A stretch of 64,000 nt of DNA from Albula goreensis (lineage: Eukaryota; Chordata; Actinopteri; Albuliformes; Albulidae). The translations under genes and the position numbers were made by a program. A model generated the notes under the pieces. That model worked only from the letters and a program-made list of their open reading frames with translations. It made no database searches and had not been told where the DNA came from. Below, piece after piece: positions 7,476-43,151 of the stretch (positions within the stretch are counted from its first letter, which is position 1; every line of letters starts with the position of its first letter). The stretch covers positions 6,963,581 through 7,027,580 of the forward strand of contig CM040751.1 of the NCBI GenBank assembly GCA_022829145.1, written 5' to 3'.

Positions 7476-9059
7476 AGCTGGTTCATTTTAGTATGTAGAT
7501 TCTGGGATTTCAGTGTCAATATGCTGTTGTTTCCTGTTCATAATTAGAATTTTCCGAAACCCTATGTACCTATGACTCTTGTCCTGATCGCCTGCACACA
7601 TGAGTTACTGCCATACATTTGTATGAATGGGGGGGAATCTCTTCAATCTGCCATACGTTATTAATTCAGTGTGTGAGTCCTTACTTCACAATGATTACCA
7701 GTCTTTGAATGGTGCTACCTCACTGTCTACGAAGATCCCAAGGATCAAGAACAGCTTCTTCCTCTCTACAATCTGGAGATCAGGCTCCTTTCACCTGGCA
7801 TACCACTCCTGAGCTACTTAAGGACCTATTGCACTCTATTTTGAAATATTACACTGTCATACTTGTTCTTTTTCATGAATACTGTTTCTTGTCCATACAT
7901 TTCTTGAAGTATTTGGCTAATGTGTTTTTTTATGAAGCCCTGTACTGAATGTATTGTTATATTATACTGATGCCTATACATTGTTTTTTCTGTATTTTGT
8001 AAGAGTTTTTATACAGTGAAAGCTATTACTTCTGGCTTTGGCCATGTGACAATAAAGAATGTTATTTTGTATGTTGTGGGTAGCTAGCTGCATACCAAAG
8101 GTAAAGTTCCAAGGAAAGGAGTACCCCCATCTCCTCTCTCTGTTTTCATCTTTGTTTACATACCTACAGGTTATTAGCAGAACATTAGTCATAACAAAAA
8201 GCATTCCACAGATGTGAATTCGGCAGTAATGGGTGGAGGCTTATTTTCAAATGTTCAGTTGCACTGAGTGATAAAGAAGAAAATAAACCATTAAAATGTT
8301 CAGTTATGTGCAAGGAGTACACCGAGATGGGCTGTGGTGTGATGATGCAGTCCAAAGACAGGGGCTTGAGCATATGAGCTATACTAAAGTTATTTATTTT
8401 CAAAGAATCACGTTTCCCATCTTTGTTTTTTCCTTACGAACTACAGGACTAAGCAAGATCGTGCAATCAGGCTCAGAGGAGAAGGCACTCATATACTTAA
8501 GACATACACTTATCCGAAGAGAAATAAATGCAACATCCTATACATGTGACAAACATTTAGTTGGGTTACATTGTTGATAAAATGCAAGGTAATAGAGTTT
8601 GCAAAGTTAATTTCGATGTAGCTGGATTGCTTCATAATCCCACATTTTTACACTAATGTTATGAGACCTGCAACATGTTACACAACATCATCAAGTAGGT
8701 CTGTAACCTACCTATCGTAACTTCATATTTAGCAGACGCCCTCATCTGGAGCGAATAGGCTACAGTTAACACTCCTACACACCACCCATGTAGGCATGTT
8801 TTAAACCCCACAGTCAAAGTATCCTTCATTGAAAGTATCAAATAACAACTTTACATTTTTCCTCAAGACCTCAGTCTCCGCTCCTGGCAGAGAATAAGGC
8901 AACGAGTGGCGACAGCGAGCTACTGTCTAATACTCACACGGCTCTGTTTTTTTTTTTTTTTTTTTTGATTAGGAAGTCCACTTTATGCATTTCGTTAGAA
9001 CATAACTTCACCACTGGTACGAAGCCAAATCCAAATTTCCTTTGAATTTCCTGGACCAG

Positions 9060-9212
9060 TTTTAGATTTCAAGACCACAGTCCAGTGGTTCTCAGCTGTA
9101 GTCAAGGAAGGTGAGCAAACTTCTAGTTTTAGATTTCAAGACCTGTTTTAGATTTCAAGACCATGATCTAGTGTTTCTCAACTGTAGTCAAAGGAAGGTG
9201 AGCAAACTTCTA
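9060..9212 (+). repeat. imperfect tandem duplication, about 67 bp per copy
   Basis: Copy 1 (about 9060-9126) and copy 2 (about 9145-9212) both run from TTTTAGATTTCAAGACC to GGTGAGCAAACTTCTA with scattered differences. A short partial copy of the start of the unit (near 9127-9143) lies between them. Confidence 0.8.
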
Positions 9213-10668: not shown

Positions 10669-34771
<24,103 letters not shown>

Positions 34772-35887: not shown

Positions 35888-36085
35888 TCAGTCACAGGGC
35901 TGGTCTGGGTGTTCGTGACTGATGGGGAAGTAGTAGAGCGGGATGTTCTGGGGGCAGGGGTGGCCGGGAGGCTGACTCCAAACCGTTTGGGCTTCCATTG
36001 GTTCCCCTCGGCCATGTCTGTGATGACACCCCAGGGTGAAGTTCTTGAACAGGGGGATCTTCACCTGGATCACCACCTCACGATC
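35888..36085 (-). CDS. rnaset2: RNase T2 terminal coding exon
   Basis: The acceptor is CTGGCAG and the stop TGA is at 35890-35888. It encodes 65 residues starting DREVVIQVKIPLFKNFTLGC, which aligns with human IGQIELCLTKQ...LQNC. A tail with GHPCPQNIPLYYFPISHEHP follows. Confidence 0.85.
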   Translation of the reverse strand, partial: DREVVIQVKIPLFKNFTLGCHHRHGRGEPMEAQTVWSQPPGHPCPQNIPLYYFPISHEHPDQPCD

Positions 36086-39000
36086 CTGCCAGTACAGTGG
36101 ACCAGAGAAAGAAGAGAGGGACAGGTACACTGAGGGGGTTTGAGATTTTAAATTATTTGATGATAGTTACACACTTATAACACTCTAGGTGATATCAAAA
36201 CGTGACATAGTGTTTCAGAGAATACCAAGGATACTAATTGTATGTATATCATAACATGACTTTAAATTATTTAATTGATGTTATTATTTAATTATGCCAA
36301 TTTCTGTAATACATCACCTTGCTGGTGATCAACAGACCAACATTGTGAGTCTTGGTAGTGGGCTAGTTTGTTATATACTGTCCCAGTCATTCCAGTCGCC
36401 ATGCAAATTACTTCCATTTTATATTAATGAATATGAAATCATGCTTAAGAGTGCGTGAACCCCTTTGGAATGATCTACATTAAGTAATATTTGGACTGCA
36501 GTTATATTAAATCTTTGTGAATTTTGCAATACAAAAGTCATTCTGATTAATGGGGGAAAACATGAAAGCATACAGCATCCTCTTAGCTTATTTAGCAAAA
36601 TGGTCCAACAAAAACAGTATTTATTTTCATAGTCTATCAGTGTCTTGTGCCATATCACAAGCTTCTTGCTCACAGAATTGCTTCATCTCTGACTTTTGGG
36701 GGTTTCCTTTAATGGGTAGCTAGCTTTCGGTCTGGCCAGAGCAGTTGACCCATACATAAATATTACTCCAAAGACTTACATCTACTTGGGTAGACGTTCT
36801 GTTGATCTGCTTGGATATTTAGGATAGTTATGTCTGGATGGCCCACTTTTTGCAAAGCTTCTGCTAACAGAAGACCTGATCCACCCCTTTTGGACTTTCT
36901 GGCAAAAACGTAGAACTAATGATAGCCTCTTTACTGACGTCATCAAGAGATACATTACTCTGGCAACAAAGCAGTCCCAAACCATGGCAATTACATTACA
37001 ATGCTCGGATGAGAAGGATGGGCGTATACTTCTGTAGGACCTGTTTTTCCACCATAAATTATTGCAGCCAACAAATTTTTCCAGTGGGTCATGAAGACAG
37101 AAAACTATTTAAGCAGACTGTAAAATGTTCCATATTTGAATTTATGAAGGCGGTGACCAAAATTCCAGTGAAGGAAGCAGATGGCATATGACAATTGTAA
37201 TGAAATGAAGTTTCAAGTTTTAAGATTCATAGGAAAGCAAACCCTCAAAAATCAGATGTGAAGCAATTCTGCAAGGAAGAGGGGCTGAAATTTCTCAAAG
37301 CAGATGCCAAACACCACCGATAAACTTTTTCCTTTTGCTGTCACTGCTGGTATTTCACTTTCTGGAAAAAAAAAGTTCACATATTTTTGTCCACAAGGAT
37401 ATGTAGTGTTGGAACTTTTTGTTAATGAATTTTAAAAATATATCCAAGTAATACAGTTGGCATTTCTTACTGAGATTTAATTCACAAAGACAACATATTT
37501 TAGTTTAAAATATGTTAAAATACGTATGATTCCAAACAGTTCACAGCATCTAAGCTGTCTGGTTTGGCTGGTTAACTTTGAAATATGATTGTATGCATAT
37601 TTTGTCTGTAAACCTTTTAAAACATATTTTTAAATGTACTAAGAGTCATTTAGGGTTTTTGTTAGCACTAGTGTGTTAGCTGCATCAAAATACAAAACAG
37701 CTGTATTGTTTGCATGTGATGGGCATGGCATGGGAGAAACTGGTTCATTCTCACATCGACATATGAATATGCTGGAATATGTCATTTTGGAGAATGTTAT
37801 CCCATTATCTCTTGTAGCTTTACTAGCTTTTTTGTACTGTTCTTGCAAGACTTCTGTTTGTAGTTATCAGATAACAGTACATTTATGCCACAATTAGTCT
37901 TTTATTCCATGTTAAACCTCTGATGGTAGTGTCTTTTCTCCCTTACTTCATCTTTTTGCTGACCTGAGGTGACCACCGATTGACTGATTGAGGTTTCTTA
38001 TTTAGACTGCCTGAGAATGCATAAAAAATGCCCATTTGTGTGAAAGCGGCAACAGTGTTAGAAAGGGTGTGGAGAGATACAATGATTTCAGTGTTCAAAT
38101 TTCCCTCTTTAAAACCAGAATGACCAGTAAAATATGGAGCCAGAACAAGGTTGCTTAGTGTCTGGTTCTGGTTCCTATTCTTGTTTCCATTCCACAGCTC
38201 TTGCCCACCACCAAGACCCTAGATATAAAATTTAAATGGAAAAAAGGATTCAGTCAAGGAACTCGGAAAAATAAAGTAAGTATATATTGCTGAACACAGA
38301 ACTGTATAGAAATGTCACTTCTCTTATGCTCATAAAATCCTCCCATGGTTGTGTAGCTACTCTGCAGCCTCTAAGAGACTGCAGCGTGTAATGCCACTGG
38401 CCGCATACTAACTCTTAACAATTGCACAGATGTTTAAAAAAACTATCAACTTTCTGCAAAAAATTGTAATGTTGACCACATTCTGAACGTACTGTTTTTT
38501 TCAATACCCCCCCAGCAGAGAGAAAACAATGGACAAGTGGTGTTTCCCATTGCTGCGAAATAGTAAGGTGAAAAATATTTTTTGATTAGACTGTTATTGT
38601 TTGACATGATTTGCTTCATAATTAAAATGGTTTAATTCAGGTTTTGAAACACAGCGATAAGCTCACCTGACTGTCCTTCAGACATTAGATCTCACCTGAC
38701 TGTCTTTCAAACACTGAATCTCACGTGACTGTCCTTCAGACACTGGATCTCACCTGACTGTCCTTCAGACACTGAATCTCACCTGACTGTCCTTCAGGCA
38801 CTGGATCTCACCTGACTGTCCTTCAGACACTGGATCTCACCTGACTGTCCTTCAGGCACTGGATCTCACCTGACTGTCCTTCAGACACTGAATCTCACCT
38901 GACTGTCCTTCAGACACTGGATCTCACCTGACTGTCCTTCAGGCACTGGATCTCACCTGACTGTCCTTCAGAAACTGAATCTCACCTGACTGTCCTTCAG

Positions 39001-42000
39001 ACACTGGATCTCAAGATGATCTCCCATCATTGGGGCCAGGGCTGAGTGGAGGTCATCAAACTAAAGATACAGCATTAGAGAAACACATGCTCTCAAACTA
39101 AAGATACAGTTTCACATGCTCTCGTTTGTGGAGAAATGTCCGCACACTAAAATATGGACATGACAAACATCCATGAAGTTGCAATATTTCAAATATAATA
39201 TGCACCACAATTACAAGCTGTAAAATTACATCATTGGTTCATATAGCAAATGTTTACTGCATCTATGTGAAACTTTAAGAGACACTATAGGGGCACTATA
39301 ATCGCCGAAGAAGGTGCTAATATTGAATATACAATGTAAAGTATCCACAGAAAAGTAGTGACAGTAGCAATAGCAAAGGAAAAACACAAAGCAATGTAGC
39401 ACAAGGCATACACTGATAAGAATGGAAGTGCAACAGCAAGAATGGATACTCAGTAATAATAATGGATAGGCAGGATGGATTCAAAAAAATGGGCGAATGC
39501 CAAATTCCTCATTAAGCCCCTGTGGCATTTAAGTGTTTAGTGGGCATATGGAGAAAGTCTTCCCACTTAGGAGGTAAGCATTCAGTGAACATTTGGGTAT
39601 TACCTTGTAAGTGCTGTTGCAGGATGGCTTAATTCCTGCGTCCATCAAAGCTCTAAGAGATGAGGAGTGAGTGTGGTCAGCAACATTTCGAGTTCAGCTA
39701 AACGTTTCACACAGATGCTTATGAATTATGAATTCCAGGGATTTATACCTGCATGTTCACATTCACAGACTCTGTTGGTGCGCTTTAAAGGTCCGCTGGA
39801 CTTCACAAAATCTGTTCCGCTCACCCCGATTTCAACCCACATTAAAACACAGCTAAGGACTCTTATCAAGAGTATCGTTCAAACTGACACGGCTTGGGCT
39901 CGATTGTCAGGTGTTTTTGACAAGGACTGGATCTGTTGACTCTCTTCCCCCAAGGCGTCATGCTCACCGGTCGATATCAAACCTGCCTCTTAACTTGAGG
40001 GAAGCTTGGAAATATCTGGTCGGGGAATTCATCCCTTCTACACAAGCAGCACAGGAGCCGTGCTTGATCCACTCCTGCTTCCTGCAGGAAAGAAGACACA
40101 CCCGTGAGTATAAATGTAACAGCAACGAACCATCAATGTAAATTAACTATGCTAACCACAATTAAAATACAAATCCAGCTACATACAGAATACTCAGAGA
40201 ATACATTCATATCAAGCCCTAATTAGAGAGACGTGAAATCATAAGAATATGGATATAAGCCAGTAAAACACAATAGTCTCTCTGAGTTGAGAAGATGATG
40301 GTATCACCACTACAGGGCAAGCACAGTCATGCATCCAGAGGGATGTGGTAGGCTTTGATTTATTCTAGGCATGGTGGAGCTGTCCAATTGTCAAATCTCA
40401 AATTGCATCACTCTCTTGTGCTCTCCAAGGGCTAGCTGGGCACAGAACTGTTGATCTTGTGTTTCTCTGACTAAATGGGTAGTACACGATAAGTCCTGCA
40501 TCTGCAGTGTGAAAAACTGTAGTTAGTTGCCATATGAATCAGAGAACTCGACAACATAGATCCAGGTAAGTAAAGTGAGGAAACATACTGTAACATATAA
40601 GTCCGTAGTCTTGTTATCTGAGATTTTCAGTAGTGCAAATATTTTTTGTTACAAAAGTAAATAGATGAAAACAATGTCCCATTATTGTGGGACATATATT
40701 GGATTCTGCATTGTCAGTTTTTTTTGGCAGAAATAGTTGTAACTTGAGAAAAATGAAGTAAGCTGTGAGGGCTCAACACTTTTCTATCACAAGAAAGCTC
40801 TGCCACTAGGCACTACAGACTGTAGTTAATCTCTATCCTTCAACGACGCAGCTCTTTATAAAGTGAAGCAAAATGCTTAACAGCCAATGCTATTTTGAAC
40901 ATTTGCATAATGTTACTGTAACATACAAAGTATTTAATGCTGAGAAAAGGGTATTTCAAGGAACATGATTCAGAACATGTGACAGACACTGCCCCCTAGT
41001 GCACCTCACCCTACACTGCACAGACCTGTCCCAATACCATCTGATAAGATATAATTTATGGCTACTGCGCCCTCAGCCAGGAGCACATACCAAAAGGTGA
41101 AGCTTGTCTTGGTTTTCAGCAGTGTTGGCCACAGATCAGAGATCTCAGGCTCCAGTTCCTGGAATTGGAGTGCCGGGGGCATTTGTGGTTAACATTGCAA
41201 TCAAATAGGACATTTTCTGTTGTAAATTGTTTTTAAAGAGGGTGTCATCCCGAGCTTGAACATGCTACATACAAGCGCAAACATGAGGCTCAGAATGGAC
41301 TAAAACACTGTCTGGATTCTCACCTTGAGGTCTGATTCGAAGATAGGCCAGCAGGAACAACATCTGCCTGTGTTCATTGGCCTGAGCCAAAGAGAGGGGG
41401 GTGTTAGAGTAGCGTACCGGTGAACAAGCGACCTGCTAATTGGTCTGGTCCTGAGGTCAGGACAGAGATGTTCTCTTAAAATGTTAAAAGAAAGAATTCC
41501 CTCTGGGCTAAATGTTATCAGGTTTATTAGTTAGTTTCTTTTTCTAACCTGGGTTTTTATTTTTAATTCTAAAATTGACTTAAAGTGTAAAAATGCTTAT
41601 AGCCTAAAAACTGGTGAAAATCAGTTTCAATGCTAACATTTCAATGCTACTTCCCATTGTAGGCTTTGTTAATGGGATATTGACATGGGAATTGGTCAGT
41701 GGAGCCTTAGCCAAGGCGACATTGTGTTATGTTCCACATTGTCCGTTTTGCCAGAAGAGCACCAAAATGTCACAGTGATCTCATACAAACCACAGCAACT
41801 GTAAACAATGTATTGTATGTAACTATTTTAAAACACTAAAAACAGTCCCTTGACATAAGACCAAAAATGAATGTTGATGAAAGAGTATGGTGCTTGGTGT
41901 AGTTCAGTGGTCTCTTACCACAACCCATGGATGGTCCAGCTCTTTACGGTCCGTGGAACATTGCATCCAAGCTCCTTCTTTAGACCCTGAGAATACACAA

Positions 42001-43151
42001 ATGTGTCATCATTTTCATCTGCAAGGGACAACACCTGTAGAGCGCCCCCTTGTGTCATAACAATGGTTGTTCTCAGCAAGCTTGACAGAGTTGCAAAGAT
42101 AACTGGGCAGAGCACCATAGATAATCTATTGTACATGATGCATTTTATCTGGCTTACTCTTTCCTGTACCAGAAGCCAATTTACCTTTTCAAAGTGAGAA
42201 GATTCAAAATCAGGCTGACCAGAAGGGATCCTTGGTATGCAATGACTATAGCTGATCCGTGATGGGCACTGTGGCACTACAGCCAATCAAAGTGATGGTG
42301 AGTTTGCAGTGTTGCATTCTGGACTAGGCACAGGACTGAGAGACCTGGGTGTGTATTGGAACAGTACAGCCCAAATAGGATAGGCCTCTTGAAAATGGGT
42401 CAAATGGCTCAGGTTGCTGTCAGTTACTGATCATAACATTATTTAAGTCATAATGTTATTTAAATTATTCCATAGCCGTTACAAAAAAAGAATAAAAACT
42501 TTTTTCCATGGTAGCAGCAAATTAAATACACATCACAATGGACATAATCACACGTCAGAATATTCAAGCACATATTCTGTACAGAATAGGATGAATGTTA
42601 TTCTTTAGCTCACTCTTGGTTGGACAAGCTAAGTCCATGCCACACACAGCCACATGCTCACCTTTCATAAGTGCTTGGTGTGTCCAGCCAAATGTTTGAA
42701 GTGTAAAACATTATACAACTTGTGATAAAAACAATGAGAAGAGATTCCAAACCAGTGCACACTCACCACACAGAAGGATCCAGGCCACAATAAAGCAAAC
42801 CTCATGCATTCCCAGTCACAAAATCTGGACAGAAAAATACATTTTGATCAAATGAAATCAATTCATAGAGAATGAAAAATCCACAATTCACCCACACCGA
42901 TGGCAACAGTCTGCAACATGCATGTTCCATTCAGCTCCTTGGAGATAAGGCCTCTAACGAAGGTAAACAGCAACAAGCAAGCCCAATCAGTAAGTAAGTG
43001 GACTAGTCTTATTTCGGAACAGTGCTTTCATACACAGAGTGTGCGAAGGGGGCCCTTACGTTATGTCCGTCTGGAAAAGTTCATCGGCATGTTTGAGAGT
43101 AAGAGCTGGGCCACACAGCAGAAAAGCAGCCAACAGACAGACCACAGCCAT
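35888..43151 (-). CDS. rnaset2: secreted acid ribonuclease T2
   Basis: Coding exons in transcript order: 43151-43060, 42824-42767, 41986-41919, 41381-41324, 41158-41091, 40081-39968, 39652-39604, 39060-38986, 36085-35888. They sum to 780 nt, 259 aa, with every phase matching. MAVVCLLAAFLLCGPALT is a signal peptide. Active-site segment CAS I is W67TIHGLW73 and CAS II is F114 to C125 (FWKQEWIKHGSC). Family role: endonucleolytic RNA cleavage through a 2',3'-cyclic phosphate in lysosomes or outside the cell. H70, E118 and H122 match the catalytic human H65, E114 and H118. Residue 117 is Q where human has H113. The C-terminal half has paired cysteines (IQC, LGC, HPC, PC) as in fish RNase T2-like proteins. 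It could be annotated as an rnaset2-like paralogue. Confidence 0.9.
36086..38661. other. rnaset2: last RNase T2 intron, remainder
   Basis: AT-rich intron sequence without a recognisable gene. Open frames around 36780-37190 are short and match nothing I know. Confidence 0.6.
38662..39009 (-). repeat. 29-bp minisatellite, 12 copies, built from an exon end and its splice donor
   Basis: There are twelve contiguous 29-bp units. Read on the minus strand each unit is 24 bases ending in CAG followed by GTGAG. The unit at 38981-39009 is the true 3' end of coding exon 8 (I-Q-C-L-K-D-S-Q) plus the first five bases of its intron. The other eleven continue into the intron. Variants cycle roughly every three units (87 bp): ATCCAGTGTCTG, ATTCAGTxTCTG, ATCCAGTGCCTG. 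All keep GT. The unit at 38720-38748 reads CACGTGAG instead of CAGGTGAG. Confidence 0.95.
38986..39060 (-). CDS. rnaset2: RNase T2 coding exon 8 (origin of the minisatellite)
   Basis: The acceptor is ATCTTTAG and the exon has 25 codons in phase 0 on both sides. It encodes FDDLHSALAPMMGDHLEIQC and then LKDSQ. This aligns with human FKDALARVYG...KIQCLPPSQ and supplies a family-conserved cysteine. Its last 24 bases are the repeat unit amplified downstream. Confidence 0.9.
39968..40081 (-). CDS. rnaset2: RNase T2 coding exon 6 (CAS II)
   Basis: The acceptor is CCTGCAG and the donor GTGAGC. It encodes KQEWIKHGSCAACVEGMN and then RYFQASLKLRGRFDID. The catalytic Glu and His of CAS II are present. 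Gln occupies the position before Glu that is His in the human enzyme. Confidence 0.92.
41919..41986 (-). CDS. rnaset2: RNase T2 coding exon 3 (CAS I)
   Basis: The acceptor is TATTCTCAG and the donor GTAAGA. It encodes GLKKELGCNVPRTVKS and WTIHGLW, the diagnostic first active-site segment with the catalytic His. Confidence 0.93.
43060..43151 (-). CDS. rnaset2: RNase T2 first coding exon (signal peptide)
   Basis: The ATG at 43151-43149 starts MAVVCLLAAFLLCGPALTLK, a classic signal peptide. The donor is GTAAGG. The exon ends in phase 2 and joins the 58-nt exon at 42824. Confidence 0.85.

Follow-up and report, generated by a model that had tools for sequence, protein, structure and literature searches.

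A splice-donor minisatellite at coding exon 8 of an RNase T2 gene in Albula goreensis

How does a gene cope when one of its 5′ splice sites is followed by a row of near-identical copies? The question is raised by an RNase T2 gene of the fish Albula goreensis, in which the end of coding exon 8 and the start of the following intron have become a tandem repeat. We analysed the locus in a 64,000-nucleotide stretch of contig CM040751.1 (GenBank assembly GCA_022829145.1; forward-strand positions 6,963,581 to 7,027,580), referred to below as the window; positions are those of the window, and the gene lies on its minus strand. An earlier sequence-only reading had assigned the gene to RNase T2, had taken the exon for coding exon 8 and had described a 29-bp unit, consisting of 24 coding bases (IQCLKDSQ) plus GTGAG, repeated twelve times head to tail. 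That anatomy held in each of these respects. The array is real, well placed and unusual, and a human precedent exists for the kind.

A 29-bp array repeats the exon 8 donor

Tandem Repeats Finder reported 12.1 copies of a 29-bp unit between 38662 and 39013, with 92% matches and no indels; the score, 613, is the top value among the program's 13 rows for the window. A listing of the units gave the same structure. Judged from copy number and identity (twelve copies at 92%), chance does not account for the array. Unit 1 closes exon 8, and units 2–12 continue from it uninterrupted, head to tail, down to 38662 (Table 1). With a 29-bp unit, head-to-tail order and variation at 8 of the 29 unit positions, the array is a minisatellite; as it overlaps and repeats a natural 5′ splice site, that of unit 1, it is a splice-donor minisatellite. 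When the window was scanned for stretches of at least 13 identical bases at steps of 15–60, 21 runs passed a complexity filter: 19 in the array, one at the exon 8 acceptor and one at 9126–9162. Searched against viral contigs, with records near the window's own genome possibly excluded, a 26-base pattern of the unit had 0 matches.

A loose three-unit higher-order pattern had also been proposed. Three of the nine unit pairs at a lag of three are indeed identical, a marginal result (permutation p 0.049, unadjusted, with six lags tried), and the pattern is weak.

Every alternative donor leads to one stop

Donor 1 is the only one of the 12 that keeps the reading frame open, and it yields an exon 8 of 75 nt. 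All eleven alternatives, donors 2–12, run into a single TGA in unit 2 and so give the same predicted protein, ending in IQCLKDSQVRFSF before the stop. The proposals that only the first donor makes full-length enzyme and that the TGA of the second unit closes all other choices were thus borne out. Rescue of the frame by three-unit steps, which had been judged of no help, was considered and rejected here too: steps of 87 nt keep the count modulo 3, yet the TGA of unit 2 is still read. The comparable human array, in IFI6, has a 12-bp, frame-keeping unit. In-frame isoforms from alternative donors, a property of IFI6 that is not required of the kind, are absent from the predicted products, since 11 of 11 alternatives meet the TGA.

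The fate of the alternative transcripts is predicted to depend on how far this stop lies from the last exon junction: 11 nt with donor 2, 40 nt with donor 3 and 69 to 301 nt with donors 4–12. Nonsense-mediated mRNA decay (NMD) usually acts on stops that lie further upstream of the last junction than 50–55 nt. Under this rule, and because of these distances, mRNAs from donors 2 and 3 should escape NMD and encode a truncated protein, whereas those from donors 4–12 are predicted to undergo NMD. The sequence-only reading had stated that the other donors either truncate the protein or trigger decay; to this the distances add which donors do which. The truncation removes all of exon 9 with its three cysteines. 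In human RNASET2 the cysteine of the IQC motif is, we presume, paired with a cysteine beyond the cut point. In unit 2 (38952–38980) the codon at the position of this conserved cysteine is TTT (IQFLKDSQ), and a gene conversion that copied unit 2 into unit 1 would delete the cysteine from the protein.

The repeated donors are strong and almost all alike

The donor sequence CAGGTGAG is identical in 11 of the 12 units; the exception is unit 10, with CACGTGAG. Over the 453 minus-strand GT sites between 43200 and 35880, the best calculated duplex energy with U1 is −11.1 kcal/mol, a value reached by those eleven array donors and by the donor of exon 2, and the donor of unit 10 stands at −4.7 kcal/mol. 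The other six true donors of the gene, in the region 39604–43060, range from −5.1 to −9.6 kcal/mol. The intact array donors thus pair better with U1 than six of the seven other true donors, and exon 2 ties with them. Across the whole window, on both strands, 26 of 7435 GT sites reach −11.0 kcal/mol or better. The eleven equal donors follow one another at 29 nt, and at 58 nt where the damaged tenth sits. The earlier description of eleven near-identical extra donors therefore stands for the ten that equal donor 1 and fails for unit 10.

GTGAG itself is retained in all 12 units; with 8 of 29 unit positions variable overall, 0 of 5 varying within GTGAG is unsurprising. We also considered RNA structure as a means of hiding the distal donors and rejected it, the fold of 38640–39060 being no stronger than those of shuffled sequences (z +1.82; 96 of 100 shuffles at least as stable). 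The weak tenth donor, the positions of the stop relative to donors 2 and 3 and a doubled acceptor of exon 8, described below, are additions to what the sequence-only reading had noticed.

The host is an RNase T2 gene, probably of the fish Dre1 type

The gene model joins nine coding exons, of which exon 8 is the eighth. All eight introns have GT and AG ends, their phases fit and the joined frame has no internal stop. The 259-residue translation matches Pfam PF00445 at E 1.5e-40, and a shorter query lacking exons 1, 2 and 4 matches human RNASET2 (3t0o) at 9.1e-24. Both CAS I (SWTIHGLW) and CAS II (FWKQEWIKHGSC) are present in the translation. On these matches the gene is a member of the RNase T2 family.

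Aligned with 3t0o, the second histidine of CAS II in human FWKHEW is replaced by glutamine in the Albula gene (fwkqew). According to the available text of PMC2720953, this histidine is replaced by Glu, Asp, Gln or Asn in every analysed gene of the RNase Dre1 clade, a clade restricted to fishes, and both zebrafish RNase T2 genes, Dre1 and Dre2, have nine coding exons. The Albula gene has the glutamine and also the nine coding exons, the latter a feature common to Dre2. Because both characters match that description, the gene is best taken as belonging to the fish RNase Dre1 type, an assignment made on the CAS II residue and the exon count.

Exon 8 (39060–38986) is spliced in frame to exon 9 at 36085, and the alignment with human RNASET2 continues over this junction (iqclkdsq/drev in Albula against IQCLPPSQ/DEEV in human), the nearest gap falling after drev. 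Since the human alignment is unbroken across the donor 1 junction, we take donor 1 to be the ancestral site.

Elsewhere in the window, on the plus strand, 20001–20468 holds an exon of the elongation factor SPT5 (PDB 5oik chain Z, E 1.2e-49), which places the RNase T2 gene near SUPT5H and on the opposite strand.

Unit variants point to the coding unit as a likely source

Identity at a lag of 29 begins at the TGAG within the coding sequence CTTGAG and ends at the TGAG that closes unit 12. TGAG is common to coding CTTGAG and donor GGTGAG, so that the array both opens and closes with it. This suggests that the first duplication arose through a four-base TGAG microhomology, which would account for both the unit length and the exact edges.

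The units differ by eight single-base variants. Read in the exon frame, five of the eight are synonymous, against an expectation of 18–26% (p 0.007 to 0.035, by transition bias), and in the other two frames the counts are 2/8 and 1/8; a recount in which changes within GTGAG are never synonymous gave p 0.002 to 0.03. Only two variants are common to several units, and both are silent: Ile ATC/ATT in four units and Cys TGT/TGC in three. Because the variants are mostly silent in the exon frame, they suggest that the array was seeded repeatedly from a unit under coding constraint. Variants confined to one unit cluster at the other end, five of six lying in units 10–12 (p 0.007), as would be expected if units turn over on the exon side and the distal ones are old. 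The direction of amplification, which had been put forward as an inference, gains support from the TGAG edges together with the mostly silent variants.

The acceptor of exon 8 is doubled as well

The 3′ splice site of exon 8 is itself tandemly doubled, with a 37-bp step and 17 identical bases (39056–39123). The motif CTGTATCTTTAGTTTGA occurs twice, 37 bp apart, and each copy is preceded by GAGAGCATGTG; in the downstream copy, eight additional bases separate one motif from the other. The pyrimidine tract of the upstream acceptor is 50% pyrimidine, against 75% for the downstream one. When the two acceptors are combined with the twelve donors, 1 of 24 combinations is open. Two duplications at a single 75-nt exon may reflect local instability, on the evidence of one case.

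The last of the 21 runs in the window scan belongs to a block at 9030–9212 that is duplicated with an 87-bp step and contains an 18-nt tandem copy (GTTTTAGATTTCAAGACC). Each of its two copies ends, at 9108 and at 9195, in the donor-like AAGGTGAG (AAGGTGAGCAAACTTCTA). Inspection by eye of all frames around the repeat at 9126–9162 revealed no recognisable exon, and a 39-residue open stretch there had no Pfam match; given the donor-like ends of both copies, the motifs at 9108 and 9195 may include a splice site. A general tendency of repeats in the window to lie on splice sites is at most a possibility.

Table 1 Features of the RNase T2 locus on the minus strand (window positions)
Feature	Position	Strand	Remarks
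RNase T2 gene, nine coding exons, Dre1-like	35888..43151	-	predicted protein 259 aa; PF00445 E 1.5e-40
Exon 9, last coding exon (DREVVIQV...QPCD), TGA ending at 35888	35888..36085	-	
29-bp tandem array, 12 units and leading TGAG; exon 8 end into intron 8	38662..39013	-	
Units 2–12, intron 8	38662..38980	-	ten donors equal to donor 1 over CAGGTGAG, one damaged (unit 10)
Unit 10, donor CACGTGAG	38720..38748	-	U1 duplex -4.7 vs -11.1 kcal/mol
Unit 1: ATCCAGTGTCTGAAGGACAGTCAG (IQCLKDSQ, last 24 nt of exon 8) and GTGAG	38981..39009	-	productive 5′ splice site
Coding exon 8, 75 nt, phase 0 at both ends	38986..39060	-	homology spans exon 8–9 junction
Downstream acceptor copy, AG ends at 39061	39056..39094	-	productive
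Upstream acceptor copy, AG ends at 39098	39093..39123	-	weaker pyrimidine tract; use would give FESMCFSNAVSLV and a stop

Discussion

We think it probable that the array is a minisatellite grown from a working exon–intron junction, in which donor 1 is dominant and the extra donors are mostly a tolerated by-product. A single short tandem duplication, with the TGAG of CTTGAG and that of GGTGAG as its probable ends, would have doubled the last 24 coding bases together with GTGAG, and later slippage or unequal exchange would have enlarged the array to twelve, chiefly by copying the coding unit. Most transcripts would then be spliced at donor 1, since exon 8 is shortest (75 nt) with that donor. The equal downstream donors would be expected to take some share of transcripts, as two downstream units of the human IFI6 array are reported to do, and would be tolerated as nearly neutral, mis-choices being mostly cleared by NMD or leaving a minority of truncated product. 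Since the gene is otherwise intact in its exons, its GT and AG ends and its PF00445 match, we infer that donor 1 must be used enough.

Several points weigh against this explanation. In other systems with equal donors, the one nearest the next acceptor can win; the same rule applied here would favour unit 12 and cripple the gene. The array donors, with U1 pairing above that of six of the seven other true donors, are not weak decoys. The single-copy ancestor of the exon 8 end is putative, and the four-base match of TGAG could be due to chance. Three of the eight variants are not silent, namely a stop in unit 12, Cys to Phe in unit 2 and Gln to His in unit 10, and the variant tests were devised post hoc, on these eight variants, with unit 1 assumed ancestral.

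The extra donors could instead act as a splicing rheostat, diverting a fixed or regulated share of transcripts to unproductive isoforms, so that repeat number would set the amount of active enzyme and selection on it would be possible. We regard this as unlikely, though it has several findings to draw on: eleven equal, strong donors with U1 pairing above 6/7 of the gene's other true donors; alternatives that all share one truncation, the stop lying over 55 nt ahead of the last junction in 9 of 11; a GTGAG that is intact in all 12 units; and an acceptor that is doubled too, its upstream copy unproductive. Of these, the conservation of GTGAG is a weak signal, given how much of the unit does not vary. 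One donor, that of unit 10, is already damaged, and we saw no sign of regulation. More doubtful again is the extended form of the idea, in which the exon end keeps seeding identical decoys into its own intron, each with the same truncated or decayed outcome, and active RNase is tuned by unit number.

Competition among donors of equal strength is also what would be predicted if the array harms the gene. Distal donors would then often win, and the locus would be a hypomorph that is becoming a pseudogene, or else a polymorphic load allele. With both splice sites of exon 8 repeated, 23 of the 24 combinations are closed; against this, the nine exons remain open with their GT and AG sites, so there is no sign yet of relaxed constraint, and we consider such damage improbable.

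A further idea, to which we give slightly less credit, is that the array is spliced more than once: with AG/GT at each unit junction, any run of whole units from GT to AG would be removable as a small intron, or the choice of a distal donor would be corrected by a further excision that restores the normal mRNA, making the array an intron nursery or a buffer against error. CAG/GTGAG is indeed found at 11 of 12 unit junctions, and tandem duplication of AGGT is a published route of intron gain (Rogers; ATP2A1), including a fission yeast case with multiple 24-bp copies (SPOG_01682), as set out in the accessible parts of PMC4974935. Albula shares with that route the short tandem AGGT units, in which each junction is a potential GT donor and AG acceptor (CAGGTGAG in 11 of 12 units). 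It differs in that the AGGT served as a donor before it was duplicated and that the units hold no acceptor signal beyond AG: by a crude count, the 20 nt preceding the array AGs are 45–50% pyrimidine and form no pyrimidine tract, against 60–80% at the eight true acceptors. A single 29-nt unit is, moreover, below the usual minimum length of an intron.

That the unit is truly present once or a few times and was multiplied in assembly is very improbable, because although the copy number rests on one assembled haplotype, ordered point variants distinguish the units and the array, at 352 bp, is a short span for long reads and even for Sanger reads.

Among the literature matches listed, we recognised one splice-donor minisatellite, that of human IFI6 (6-16, G1P3), which is no proof that the literature lacks a case in fish; IFI6 is described by Turri, Cuin and Porter (1995), as cited in the available portions of PMC4526556 and PMC2572611. 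In IFI6, two downstream repeat units are used as donors, giving three mRNA species, by the account in the excerpts of PMC4526556. The likeness, as far as these excerpts describe IFI6, is that minisatellite units supply several splice donors; the difference is that alternative donors in IFI6 give protein isoforms, whereas the 29-bp unit of Albula breaks the frame and sends all alternatives to one stop. The genes are also unrelated, and in Albula the acceptor has been duplicated too. The late leader splicing of polyomavirus (PMC5086616, in the text available) resembles the present case as a choice among identical tandem splice sites within one transcript, and is unlike it in that the repeats there are genome-length and arise in giant viral transcripts, where Albula has a minisatellite in its DNA. 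Zebrafish RNase Dre1, compared by description only, shares with the Albula gene the RNase T2 family, nine coding exons and a polar residue for the second CAS II His, and the portion of PMC2720953 that describes it mentions no donor array at exon 8. The available part of a paper on sea bream myostatin (PMC3045353) has nothing on repeated donors.

What is new in the Albula array is that its 29-bp step destroys the frame and sends all alternatives to one truncation, that the acceptor is doubled too, that TGAG stands at both edges and that the units show signs of having been copied from the coding one. Donor choice is usually studied in built minigenes with two or a few sites. Here nature offers a series of eleven donors that are the same over eight bases, in which one choice is productive and all others have a common read-out. 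The series is thus a natural experiment on how the cell selects one of several near-identical splice sites. The silent-site bias suggests that its history can be read, as that of an array seeded from coding-constrained sequence. If carriers differ in repeat number, the effect of dose on donor competition, exon definition and NMD could be read directly from the locus.

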